DNA of 64,000 nt. Source: Nonomuraea corallina. Lineage in GTDB: Bacteria; Actinomycetota; Actinomycetes; Streptosporangiales; Streptosporangiaceae. This document shows, in pieces, positions 41,141 through 46,688 of the stretch. The position numbers and the translations under genes are program-made. Location of the stretch: the NCBI RefSeq assembly GCF_027620315.1, contig NZ_JAPNNL010000014.1, forward strand, positions 1-64,000, given 5' to 3'. Numbering within the stretch: position 1 is the first letter of the stretch; each line of letters opens with the position of its first letter. Under the pieces are notes generated by a model that did no database searches, was not told where the DNA came from, and saw nothing but the letters and a program-made list of their open reading frames with translations.

Positions 41141-41281
41141 GCTGAGACGACCAATTGTGGACGGTCCAAAGTTGGTCGTCTCAGCCGCGGTTGGTCTCAT
41201 CCATGAGACCGATGGTGAGCCCGGGTCTCACCGATTCAGCTCTTGAGACCAACTCTTCTTGTTAGTCTCACGGATGAGACC
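41141..41281. repeat. Upstream cluster of TGAGACC/GGTCTCA palindromes
   Basis: Within 141 bp are: a perfect 14-bp inverted repeat GCTGAGACGACCAA (41141-41154) with 41172-41185; GGTCTCA-TCCA-TGAGACC (41193-41210); GGTGAG-7-CTCACC (41214-41232); TGAGACCAAC-7-GTTAGTCTCA (41244-41270); and GTCTCA-CGGA-TGAGAC (41265-41280). The last ends just before the ribosome site of the ATPase gene. The same core recurs after that gene. Confidence 0.9.
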
Positions 41282-41294
41282 AAAGTGAGGTGTC

Positions 41295-42704
41295 GTGGAG
41301 CCCTTCATCGGCAGGCAGCGGGAACTGGCGGTCCTGGGGCGTGCGCTGGAGAAGTGCCGCGCCAGCAGGACCGGACGCCCCGGCCGGGCGCTCCTGGTCC
41401 GGGGACGCCGCCGGGTGGGCAAGTCGCGGCTGGCGGAGGAGTTCATCCATCGGGCCCGCGTGCCGTACGTGTTCTACACGGCGACCGGTCAGACGCTGAC
41501 CAGGGAGCTGCGCATCTTCACCGACGAGGTGCTGGCGAGCGACCTCCCCGCCGCCTCGGTCTTCCAGGAGCGCGAGCCGCGGTCCTGGCATGACGCGCTC
41601 GTTCTCCTGGCCCGCGCGCTGCCCGAGGACGCGCCGAGCATCGTCGTCATCGACGAGCTGCCGTACCTCATCAAGGCGGACCCCACGCTGGAGGGCGTGC
41701 TGCAGAAGGTCTTCGACCGGGAGTTCTCCCGGCGTCCGGTGCTGCTGCTCCTCATCGGCTCCGACCTGTCGATGATGGAGGCGATCAACGCCTACGAGCG
41801 GCCCTTCTACCAGCGGGCGGCTGATTTCCTGGTCGACCCCCTCACTCCCCTCGACGTCGGGAAGGCTCTGGGGCTACAGGCGGCGGAGGCGTTCGACGCC
41901 CATCTGGTGTCCGGTGGCCTGCCCCTGGTCTGCGAGGAGTGGCCCGAGGGCGGCTCGCTCTGGGACTACCTGCGGGAGGCGGTCAACGACCCGATCTCCG
42001 CCCTGGTCGTCAGCGGGGAGCGTGCCCTGGATGCGGAGTTCCCGCCGGAGGCGCATGCCCGTCAGGTGCTCACCGCGATCGGATCCGGACAGCGTACCCA
42101 CGCGAACATCGCCGCGTCCGCTCAGGGCATGTCCCGTGCCACGATGAACCGCGCCCTCCAGTTGCTGCTGGAGAAACGGATGATCGCCGTCGACCGTCCG
42201 CTGTCCACGCGCCCGTCGCGGGAGACGCGATACCACGTGGTCGACTCACACCTGCGGTTCTGGATCCCGTTCATCGGAAACCGGCTGACGGTCATCGAGC
42301 GGGGCCGGGGTGACCAGGTGCTGGAGCACATCCGCCGGCAGTGGACGTCCTGGCGGGGGACGGCCGTGGAGCCCGTCATCCGGGAGTCGCTGCGCCGCAT
42401 GGCCGACCTGCCCGAGGAGACCGGCGCCGTGGGCGGCTACTGGACGCGCAACAACGACCCGGAGATCGACCTCGTCGGCGCCGACCGCGAACCCGTGGCC
42501 AAGCGCGTCACCCTGCTGGGATCGATCAAGTGGCTGGAGAACCGGCCCTTCGACCACCACGACCTGAGCGAGCTGATCGTGCACCGGTCGAAGATGCCCG
42601 GCGCCGACGCCGGCACCCCCCTTTACGCCGTCTCCCGGGCCGGATGCGCCGTCGACGGCATCCGCCACGTCACCCCGGACGAGCTCCTCGACGCCTGGCG
42701 CTGA
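41295..42704 (+). CDS. Archaeal-type AAA ATPase with C-terminal DUF234 (nuclease-like) domain
   Basis: The 469-residue cytoplasmic protein starts FIGRQRELAVL. The P-loop is GRRRVGKS (37-44), Walker B VVIDEL (117-122), and sensor-1-like LLLIGSD. A winged-helix segment follows (YHVVDSHLRFWIPFI region), and then a DUF234 domain in which NDPEIDLVG and LLGSIKW resemble the D/E...xK pattern of PD-(D/E)xK nucleases. Such ATPases are common in archaea and sporadic in bacteria, with no settled role. GAGGTG precedes the GTG. The gene stands alone between two clusters of palindromes that share a core sequence, an arrangement suggesting operators for self-control or target sites for the protein itself. 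No transposase is near. Confidence 0.85.
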   Translation: MEPFIGRQRELAVLGRALEKCRASRTGRPGRALLVRGRRRVGKSRLAEEFIHRARVPYVFYTATGQTLTRELRIFTDEVLASDLPAASVFQEREPRSWHDALVLLARALPEDAPSIVVIDELPYLIKADPTLEGVLQKVFDREFSRRPVLLLLIGSDLSMMEAINAYERPFYQRAADFLVDPLTPLDVGKALGLQAAEAFDAHLVSGGLPLVCEEWPEGGSLWDYLREAVNDPISALVVSGERALDAEFPPEAHARQVLTAIGSGQRTHANIAASAQGMSRATMNRALQLLLEKRMIAVDRPLSTRPSRETRYHVVDSHLRFWIPFIGNRLTVIERGRGDQVLEHIRRQWTSWRGTAVEPVIRESLRRMADLPEETGAVGGYWTRNNDPEIDLVGADREPVAKRVTLLGSIKWLENRPFDHHDLSELIVHRSKMPGADAGTPLYAVSRAGCAVDGIRHVTPDELLDAWR

Positions 42705-42709
42705 CCCGT

Positions 42710-42804
42710 CCCTTGGTCTCACCCGTGAGACCAAGGGTCCGGGATGGTCTCACTGGTTCGCCACGTGAGACCGAAGTTCCCGTTGGTCTCACCGGTGAGA
42801 CCAA
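42710..42804. repeat. Downstream cluster of GGTCTCA/TGAGACC palindromes
   Basis: Three palindromes follow the ATPase stop: a perfect 13-bp stem CCCTTGGTCTCAC (42710-42722) with 42725-42737; GGTCTCAC (42746-42753) with GTGAGACC (42765-42772); and the perfect 22-bp palindrome made of TTGGTCTCACC and its complement at 42783-42804. The first could terminate the ATPase transcript, but the shared core with the upstream cluster points to a common binding site. Confidence 0.9.
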
Positions 42805-42859: not shown

Positions 42860-42873
42860 ACCGAACGTTCGGT
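42860..42873. promoter_or_regulatory. TetR-type operator palindrome
   Basis: ACCGAACGTTCGGT is a perfect 14-bp palindrome 6 bp before the TetR start codon, of the form used by TetR regulators of acyl-CoA metabolism. It probably autoregulates the TetR-ligase-hydratase operon. Confidence 0.75.
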
Positions 42874-45019: not shown

Positions 45020-45744
45020 TCGACACAACGGTCCGCGACGAGGTGGCCGTCATCACCCTGAACCGTCCGGAGAAGCTCAACGCGCTCACCGCCGGCATGC
45101 GCAGGGACCTCGCGCAGGCCGTCCGCGACCACGGCGACGGCTCGGTCAGAGGCATCGTGGTGACGGGCACCGGGCGGGCGTTCTCGGCCGGCGAGGACAT
45201 CAACGAGGCGGTCGGCCGGTCCCTGCTGGACGAGGTCGCGCTCTTCCACGACCTGACCAGGGCCGTCCTGCAGACCCGGGTGCCCGTGGTGGCCGCCGTC
45301 AACGGCCTGTGCGTCGGCGGCGCCGCCGAGTGGACCCTCTGCTTCGACGCCCGCCTCGGCACCCCCGCCGCCGAGTACTTCCTGCCCGAGAACCACATCG
45401 GCCTGTCGATCTCCAACGCCTCCAGCCTCCTGCTGCGCCGCCTCATCGGCGGCCGGGCGCTGCGCTTCGTGCTCGACTCGTCCCGGATCAGCGCGGAGGA
45501 GGCGCAGCGGCTCGGCATCCTGGACGAGATCGTCGCCCCCGACGCCCTCCTGGACACGGCGATCGGCCTCGTCCACCGCTGGACCCTGCCCGGCACGGCC
45601 ACCGGCGTCCACCTGCGCCTCCTGCGCCCGTCACTGGAGGAGGTGGAGGCCGCCTTCGCCGTGGAGACGGAGGCCGCCAAGGAGGTGGAGGACTCGGGCA
45701 TCGCCCAGGCCGGCATGGACCGCTTCGTCAACCGCGACCGCTGA
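45016..45744 (+). CDS. Enoyl-CoA hydratase/isomerase family protein
   Basis: A 242-residue crotonase-fold protein. NRPEKLNAL forms the CoA-binding start, GRAFSAGEDINE the first oxyanion loop, and VNGLCVGGAAEWTLCFDARL the second. Glu residues in the positions used by hydratases are partly replaced, so hydratase, isomerase or hydrolase remain possible. GAGGAGAGG precedes the ATG, which overlaps the ligase stop. The last 41 bp, including the stop codon, are repeated 943 bp downstream beyond a toxin-antitoxin cassette. Confidence 0.9.
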   Translation: MIDTTVRDEVAVITLNRPEKLNALTAGMRRDLAQAVRDHGDGSVRGIVVTGTGRAFSAGEDINEAVGRSLLDEVALFHDLTRAVLQTRVPVVAAVNGLCVGGAAEWTLCFDARLGTPAAEYFLPENHIGLSISNASSLLLRRLIGGRALRFVLDSSRISAEEAQRLGILDEIVAPDALLDTAIGLVHRWTLPGTATGVHLRLLRPSLEEVEAAFAVETEAAKEVEDSGIAQAGMDRFVNRDR

Positions 45745-45745
45745 G
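45705..45745 (+). repeat. Direct repeat copy 1 (3' end of enoyl-CoA hydratase gene)
   Basis: 41 bp matching 46648-46688 with one mismatch (at 45713), with 32 bp identical (45714-45745), containing the last codons (MDRFVNRDR) and stop of the hydratase gene. The pair brackets higBA. Confidence 0.95.
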
Positions 45746-45794
45746 CCAGGAAATGCCGTTTCGTTCCCGCACGGCCTGCCGGAGCGAACACCAT

Positions 45795-45823
45795 GGTCCT
45801 GGTAGCGGGCCGCTTCCAGGACC
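45795..45823 (+). terminator. Possible terminator hairpin
   Basis: GGTCCTGG (45795-45802) pairs with CCAGGACC (45816-45823) across a 13-nt loop, 50 bp after the hydratase stop and before the toxin-antitoxin promoter. No T tract follows. Confidence 0.4.
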
Positions 45824-45895
45824 AGAGACTGAAGAGACGACATTCGGCATCTTCCGGTAGAACCGTACTCCGTTCCTTGTGATAGCCTCCGAGTG

Positions 45896-45914
45896 ATATA
45901 AGGATTCATTATAT
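45896..45914. promoter_or_regulatory. AT-rich palindrome at the higBA promoter
   Basis: ATATAA-7-TTATAT, a perfect inverted repeat in an unusually AT-rich stretch ending 7 bp before the toxin start. It likely contains the -10 element and the HigA operator. Confidence 0.6.
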
Positions 45915-45921
45915 TGGCAGC

Positions 45922-46296
45922 ATGGCCTGGGAGATCACGCTGCACATCGAAGTGAACGCCTGGTTCATGGACGTCTGCAAGAACGATCCGATCGCTGCCG
46001 AGAAGATCGAGGAAGCCCTGGACGAGCTTGCCCTGCAAGGTCCGAAACTCGGCCGCCCGCTGGTCGACCGGATCCACCACTCCCGAGTCCTGCACAACCT
46101 CAAGGAACTGCGGCCGCGTGTACCAGGCGAGGCCGAGATCCGCATGCTGTTCGTCTTCGACCCCACCCGGGAGGCCATCGTGCTGGTCGCTGGTGACAAG
46201 TCCGGGGCATGGAACCGGTGGTACCGCACGGCGATTCCCTTGGCGGAGGAACGCTACGCCGCATACCGTGCCGAAAAGGAGGAGGAACAGCGATGA
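45922..46296 (+). CDS. higB: HigB-type (RelE/Gp49-like) toxin
   Basis: The 124-residue protein matches Gp49/HigB-like mRNA interferases: WEITLHIEVNAWF at the start, AEKIEEALDELALQGPKLGRPLVD, then HNLKELRP and RMLFVFDPTREAIVLVAGDKSG, the typical RelE-fold core strands with basic residues. It would cleave mRNA on the ribosome. As in other hig loci the toxin gene comes first, its stop overlapping the antitoxin start (ATGA). An AT-rich palindrome precedes it. The whole cassette sits between two copies of the 3' end of the hydratase gene. Confidence 0.9.
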   Translation: MAWEITLHIEVNAWFMDVCKNDPIAAEKIEEALDELALQGPKLGRPLVDRIHHSRVLHNLKELRPRVPGEAEIRMLFVFDPTREAIVLVAGDKSGAWNRWYRTAIPLAEERYAAYRAEKEEEQR

Positions 46297-46625
46297 GCGA
46301 GTTCGTGAAGTGGTCTGACACCAAAGCCAAGATTCGCGAGATCGACCCCGAATGGGACTCCCCCGAGCGTGTCGCCGCGCGGCAGGCCAGTCTGGAGCAG
46401 CTTCGCAGCGAGCTTCGCGGCGCCCAGCTTGCCGAGATGCGCAAGCGCCTGGGGATTTCGCAGAAGCTGCTCGCGGAACGCATGGGGGTATCGCAGGCAC
46501 GCGTGTCCCAGATCGAGCATGGCCAGATCGGCGGCCTGGACATCCTGCGCTCCTATGTCGTCGCCCTGGGCGGGACACTGGATGTGGTGGCCGACTTCGG
46601 CGATCACACCGTAAAAGTCGCCTGA
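46293..46625 (+). CDS. higA: HigA-type XRE antitoxin
   Basis: A 110-residue protein with a C-terminal XRE helix-turn-helix (MRKRLGISQKLLAERMGVSQARVSQIEHG) after an N-terminal toxin-binding part. AAGGAGGAGG precedes the ATG. It neutralises HigB and represses the shared promoter. The overlap with higB ensures coupled synthesis. It ends 22 bp before the second copy of the direct repeat. Confidence 0.92.
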   Translation: MSEFVKWSDTKAKIREIDPEWDSPERVAARQASLEQLRSELRGAQLAEMRKRLGISQKLLAERMGVSQARVSQIEHGQIGGLDILRSYVVALGGTLDVVADFGDHTVKVA

Positions 46626-46647
46626 ACCCGTCCCGGGCGCGGGCACG

Positions 46648-46688
46648 CCAGGCCGACATGGACCGCTTCGTCAACCGCGACCGCTGAG
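46648..46688 (+). repeat. Direct repeat copy 2
   Basis: Second copy of the enoyl-CoA hydratase 3' end, including its stop codon, 943 bp after copy 1. Only 41 bp is shared, so it is a fragment and not a gene duplicate. Confidence 0.95.

Follow-up and report, generated by a model that had tools for sequence, protein, structure and literature searches.

Why should two clusters of near-identical palindromes enclose a single gene? In the window, by which we mean the whole 64-kb stretch of DNA that was analysed, inverted repeats with a shared core stand immediately before and behind one gene. Its 469-aa product combines ATPase_2/AAA_16 and DUF234 domains, as assigned with Pfam (Table 1). An earlier note on this DNA suggested that the protein, or a partner, recognises the repeats. 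Our analysis favours that view: the sites go with the gene, recognition is its most likely explanation, and the palindromes are probably autoregulatory operators bound by the encoded protein.

Two arrays bracket the ATPase/DUF234 gene

Both arrays are built from the half-sites GGTCTCA/TGAGACC in the order + - + - + -, with almost perfect mirror symmetry. The half-sites pair into three dyads on the left (41193-41210, 41224-41250 and 41264-41281) and three on the right (42715-42732, 42746-42772 and 42785-42802). The 7-nt cores of the three dyads stand 4, 13 and 4 bp apart in either array, which replaces the spacer range of 0 to 17 bp given in the earlier note. That note also counted at least eight inverted repeats. 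The arrays are real, but we count seven dyads, three in each array and one with another core. The left array fits a six-site template at 41 of 42 positions and the right array at all 42, against 23 and 25 for the best of 30 shuffles of the respective flanks.

Exact GGTCTCA cores occur 11 times in the window, always inside the two clusters. Shuffled sequence is expected to hold 9.1 cores per 64 kb, so the count is ordinary and the clustering is not. The pattern GGTCTCAN{0,24}TGAGACC had five matches in the 7.56-Mb genome, every one of them at this locus, and a reversed control pattern had no match in the same genome. The clusters reported around one ATPase/DUF234 gene are real, and the palindromes are not scattered through the genome as isolated copies; the full form is confined to this locus.

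The close relatives of this genome are mostly named Nonomuraea. We refer to the Nonomuraea genes at 75% identity or more as the A clade, which has eight intact members. In this genome alone the left half of the middle palindrome is perfect; other A-clade arrays match it at three to five of seven positions. The long imperfect palindrome upstream belongs to a sequence class that also precedes a set of paralogs termed group B. Judging from this resemblance, it is probably a relic of an older operator, perhaps left from a B neighbour.

Table 1. Features of the locus, with positions numbered from the first base of the window.
Feature	Position	Strand	Description
Left array	41193..41281		Six half-sites (+0, -11, +31, -51, +71, -82); ends 13 nt before the start codon
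Right array	42715..42802		Six half-sites (+0, -11, +31, -51, +70, -81); starts 10 nt after the stop codon
Long imperfect palindrome, CTGAGACGACCAA ... TTGGTCGTCTCAG	41143..41184		About two 15-bp units of the CCAA/TTGG class; core differs from GGTCTCA
ATPase / winged helix / DUF234 gene	41295..42704	+	469 aa; PDC-S27-like (Pfam and PADLOC)
Walker A, GRRRVGKS, residues 37-44	41403..41426	+	
Walker B, DE, residues 120-121			In the 469-aa protein
Winged-helix region, residues 236-320	42000..42254	+	Proposed site reader
DUF234 domain, PD-(D/E)xK-like	42261..42539	+	E359, D392 and K412 kept; Glu of ExK replaced by S410

A 15-bp period precedes many members of the family

We searched the upstream regions of homologous genes for direct repeats by recording the best 24-base self-match at each lag from 8 to 40, with a threshold of at least 16 matches of 24. 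Among 80 named loci, lag 15 reached the threshold in 44; the next lags, 30 and 18, did so in 6 and 3. Lag 15 also passed in 58 of 102 nonredundant actinobacterial orthologs, or 58 of 94 once the A clade is set aside, and was the best or joint best lag in 70 of the 102. Paralogs at roughly 30% identity passed in 15 of 39 cases, and plasmid-borne relatives in 19 of 30. The next lag was 30, a multiple of 15, with 10, 3 and 4 loci in the three sets. The 19 plasmid-borne loci represent nine phyla: Euryarchaeota (Halobacteria and Methanococci), Rhodothermota, Pseudomonadota, Chlamydiota, Bacillota, Actinomycetota, Fusobacteriota, Bacteroidota and Campylobacterota. Controls passed rarely at lag 15: 10 of 209 other upstream regions, 4 of 80 downstream regions and 1 of 28 genes of the DUF4143 family. 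Shuffles of the 30 plasmid loci gave a mean of 0.19 passing loci and at most 2.

These sets were assembled as follows. The orthologs are what was left of 116 sequences once 14 short or duplicate ones had been dropped. One of 40 paralog stretches was dropped (one base upstream), and the 200 bp used for this set end at the start of the match, not at the start codon. The first 15 plasmid loci came from 60 listed rows and the second 15 were picked by taxon from another 60, their flanks unseen beforehand. One locus, L238, is counted in both the ortholog and the plasmid sets, and for L275, which lacks an annotated start, the match start was used. The 209 control regions lie before frames of at least 150 aa and high GC3 rather than before annotated genes. 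Two of 30 DUF4143 loci were dropped for short frames, and start codons were guessed by script for this set and for 10 distant DUF234 loci.

Repeats do accompany homologs of the gene, but they have other sequences and mostly lie only upstream. Units 15 bp apart are of the CCAAATTTGG type, the GATACTATC type or the ATCTACATAGAT type. Loci below the threshold number 44 of the 102 orthologs (36 of the 94 outside the A clade), 24 of the 39 paralogs and 11 of the 30 plasmid-borne relatives. The same holds for 8 of 10 distant DUF234 genes from Actinobacteriota, several of which have uncertain starts. A haloarchaeal DUF234 subgroup (L228, L232, L234 and L283) also stays below the threshold; its members share a GTCATTATCG(C/T)AGTAATCATTA-like sequence shortly before the start and, by eye, repeat the six to eight bases TCATTA(TC) twice, 15 bp apart. 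None of eight pattern matches in viral contigs was a relative, and eight phage records contain distant relatives.

Relating the arrays to the 15-bp operator

None of the eight A-clade loci, including the gene in the window, passes the lag-15 test (scores 8-13), which slightly lowers our confidence in the operator reading. An automatic three-unit model gave the A-clade loci 26.7-30.1, no clear fit beside a shuffle mean of 27.4 and a 95% point of 30.0. We aligned the arrays by hand to relatives such as L018 (GATACTCTCATCAGTGAGAGTATC) and L164 (AGTCTCACAACTGAGACT). In this alignment the short A palindrome corresponds to two neighbouring 15-bp units, and the unit centres of an array fall at 1, 16, 32 and 56, 72, 87. 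From this hand alignment we infer that each array may be two mirrored three-unit operators, set as facing rows, and that it may be linked in this way to the 15-bp operator of the family. By hand calculation the two arrays are 1513-1523 bp apart, and their helical phasing was judged uninformative.

Site sequence varies with the winged-helix region

In the Walker motifs, residues G37, G42, K43 and D120 are invariant in a set of 24 actinobacterial sequences, and the same residues plus E121 are invariant in a set of 15 homologs from bacteria and archaea. A sequence search with the protein matched no solved structure. At about residues 254-304, Pfam reports helix-turn-helix matches in a minority of homologs: at a loose limit of E<=1, 9 of 24 match MarR_2 and 7 match HTH_IclR. 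The best E values are 1e-4 and 6e-5, respectively, and the MarR_2 match of the 469-aa protein itself has an E of only 0.13.

We regressed pairwise operator distance on the identity of each protein region across 72 loci. Thirty of the 102 loci had an operator score below 31 and were left out of this test and of the covariation test. Identity within residues 236-320 predicted operator distance (beta -0.595, 0 of 500 permutations; beta -0.679 with n=47), and identity within the ATPase, DUF234 and other regions was not significant for the 72 loci. The association peaked at residues 226-295 in a sliding window. Permuting inside clusters of 60% identity left the winged-helix signal at p=0.003. It was not significant inside clusters of 65% identity (p=0.149), which indicates that shared descent explains part of the link. 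When single columns were scored for covariation, 7 of the top 20 fell in residues 241-320, about twice the expectation for 62 of 349 tested columns, and 11 fell in the ATPase. By the regression, site sequence goes with the winged-helix region, not with the ATPase or DUF234, though in part through shared descent.

Another DNA-binding protein of the host might read the sites instead. The partly phylogenetic nature of the link leaves room for such a reader, and binding by the ATPase itself is a step that we infer. However, clade-specific sites precede the ATPase/DUF234 family in nine phyla, the full palindrome occurs in this genome only at the present locus, and the winged helix is the one region that predicts site sequence. 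We regard a separate reader as distinctly unlikely.

Arrays accompany the A-clade genes in a shared neighbourhood

An upstream array is present in all eight intact A-clade genes, with 34-41 of 42 template positions matched (shuffles, at most 25) and its end 12-15 nt from the start codon. One also precedes an A gene of N. basaltis that looks truncated (35 of 42). Behind the gene, five of the eight have the full right array, one has a single palindrome and two have neither; where present, these elements begin 9-13 nt past the last sense codon. The outer palindromes lie 70 or 71 bp apart in the eight arrays, from five genomes, in which both are exact. By hand tally, GTCTCAN4TGAGAC occurs at 37 places in 59 genomes including this one, and at 22 of these an ATPase homolog lies no more than about 1.5 kb away.

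The immediate neighbours of the gene encode a phosphoglucomutase and a TetR regulator. A perfect palindrome, ACCGAACGTTCGGT, lies just before the TetR gene (42860-42873) and is perhaps that gene's own operator. We fetched 30 phosphoglucomutase loci out of 39 genomes with a match, with 3' flanks of up to about 1.6 kb (shorter in G008 and G060). An ATPase match lies within about 1.5 kb downstream in 12 of the 30, one of them merely a relic. Seven flanks contain an array, six near an A gene or fragment and one as an orphan (G029). The remaining 23 score at most 21 of 35, and shuffles reached 22. In G034 the TetR gene directly follows the phosphoglucomutase gene, and there is no array.

Genes of the A and B types share this neighbourhood. 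In N. basaltis, the truncated-looking A gene and its array are followed by a B gene with CCAA iterons (L111, 2380-4700), so that each paralog apparently comes with an operator of its own. N. fuscirosea has an orphan array adjoining phosphoglucomutase with no adjacent A gene (L114, 1559-1647). The B-type gene of N. deserti has iterons, is preceded by an A-type palindrome and is followed by an A array (36 of 42); single-base breaks in the symmetry of these A-type elements make them look as if they were no longer maintained. Nonomuraea sp. G32 has an extra GGTCTCA palindrome about 1 kb behind the gene, past an apparent relic of another ATPase gene's end (L107, 4963).

The order array-gene-array could also mark a mobile or recombining cassette with the arrays as its ends, a possibility raised in the earlier note. 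The arrays do hug the gene, excision between them could leave an orphan like that of N. fuscirosea, and A- and B-type genes occupy one and the same place. However, no recombinase adjoins the gene, no further copy exists in the 7.56-Mb genome, and the pattern of ATPase matches beside phosphoglucomutase is that of a kept position with losses. Three of the eight A genes lack a full right array, and most relatives have sites only upstream. We rejected a mobile unit as the main reading and consider it quite improbable.

A proposed model of autoregulation

We return to operators bound by the encoded protein, for which negative autoregulation appears the likeliest mechanism. The protein would bind by means of its winged helix, which lies between the ATPase and DUF234 domains. 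Most relatives would have an operator of about three largely palindromic units, set 15 bp apart just before the start codon, where bound protein would mask the promoter or the ribosome-binding region and so restrict its own production. For the Nonomuraea A clade, we read the operator as a doubled form, with two blocks of three units that nearly mirror each other. With a second array behind the gene in five of the eight intact members, two protein-DNA complexes may bridge the 1.5-kb gene. ATP would presumably control binding.

Palindromes at these positions might instead act as RNA hairpins, either as terminators or in translation control from the leader. Their arms do change symmetrically in the A clade (GGTCTCA/TGAGACC and AGTCTCA/TGAGACT), the sites adjoin the ribosome-binding region, and a novel element would be compatible with the lack of an Rfam match at the gathering score in the 64-kb window. 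A tRNA scan of the window gave no match either. However, no T-run follows the palindromes of either array in the window sequence. A direct 15-bp period that holds across phyla while the sequence changes is what would be predicted for a protein on the double helix. Action as RNA is very improbable.

The DUF234 domain bears on a last alternative. E359, D392 and K412 are invariant across the 15 homologs from bacteria and archaea, and the earlier mention of PD-(D/E)xK-like residues was right in outline. The complete E - D - ExK set is not present in the 469-aa protein, however, where the glutamate of the usual ExK motif is S410. Of 24 actinobacterial homologs, 23 have Ser at this position and one has Ala, and all 11 non-actinobacterial relatives of the 15-homolog set have Glu. 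The change makes nuclease activity of the actinobacterial SxK clade doubtful. That the sites are targets for cutting by the nuclease-like domain, whether self-cutting or restriction-like, is extremely improbable, since the invariant residues that would favour it are offset by the loss of the ExK glutamate and by L012 and L025, where D392 is His or Ala, yet the upstream units persist.

Comparison with known systems

A PADLOC scan of 20 neighbouring window proteins (47 frames predicted) found no defence system beside the locus. A 357-aa neighbour matches the non-CARF part of the CARF_ADA model, and there is a weak HTH_VI match in the HTH protein of a toxin-antitoxin-like pair. In the region 45714-46688, a Gp49/HTH toxin-antitoxin-like pair (45922-46625) is flanked by two roughly 30-bp copies of the 3' end of the enoyl-CoA hydratase gene, as if it had been inserted with duplication of that gene end.

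The protein itself resembles PDC-S27, a single-gene candidate defence family with the same domains. It has both a P-loop ATPase of the ATPase_2 type and DUF234, and PADLOC matches it to PDC-S27 at E=1.2e-21. Four haloarchaeal, methanococcal, rhizobial and chlamydial relatives that were scanned match at 2e-37 to 4e-46. We take COG1672 to be this ATPase_2 + DUF234 family. A role in defence is possible, given the match to a candidate family that is unvalidated. S27 is described as an ATPase fused to a PD-(D/E)-X-K member, with 3503 systems in Archaea and 4562 in Bacteria in the data set of that study, and validation is pending for most such candidates (PMC12988326). The main text of the same paper does not contain 'palindrom', no cis-element is mentioned in the text available to us, and the actinobacterial clade differs in having SxK in place of ExK. 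We found no published description of a 15-bp operator for the DUF234, COG1672 or PDC-S27 family in a search that most subscription papers lay outside.

The local arrays are of less interest than the wider pattern, in which a 15-bp operator precedes many genes of a large candidate defence family. If shared, such an operator would give PDC-S27 a concrete DNA ligand, name the domain likely to read DNA and make regulation of the family directly testable. The operator might even be the resting place of an ATP-gated sentinel, which sits in 15-bp rows, forms a loop in the A clade, and is released or triggered when an invader disturbs the complex. We consider this extension unlikely; were it true, self-binding would be part of the PDC-S27 immune mechanism across archaea and bacteria.

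PDC-S01 (AAA_14 + DUF4143) is likewise an ATPase fused to a PD-(D/E)-X-K member (PMC12988326, in the text available to us), and PADLOC matched both DUF4143 domains scanned to it. It differs in the period of its upstream repeats. In 28 AAA_14/DUF4143 genes (from L239-L268, with starts guessed by script), lags of 23 (8 of 28), 33 (6), 22 (4) and 11 bp (3) were found upstream, against a single locus at lag 15. These repeats are a lead to what may be a second family-specific operator.

Regulation by an ATPase on repeated sites has a counterpart in STAND regulators such as MalT, which form ATP-dependent oligomers on repeated sites and differ from the present protein in domain order and in their sites. 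BrxR has a winged helix. It regulates a phage defence island and binds inverted repeats at its own locus (PMC9122601, in the text available to us), but it is a separate WYL-type regulator, whereas here the ATPase itself would regulate, on tandem units. The operators proposed here suggest how a large and poorly understood candidate defence family may control itself.
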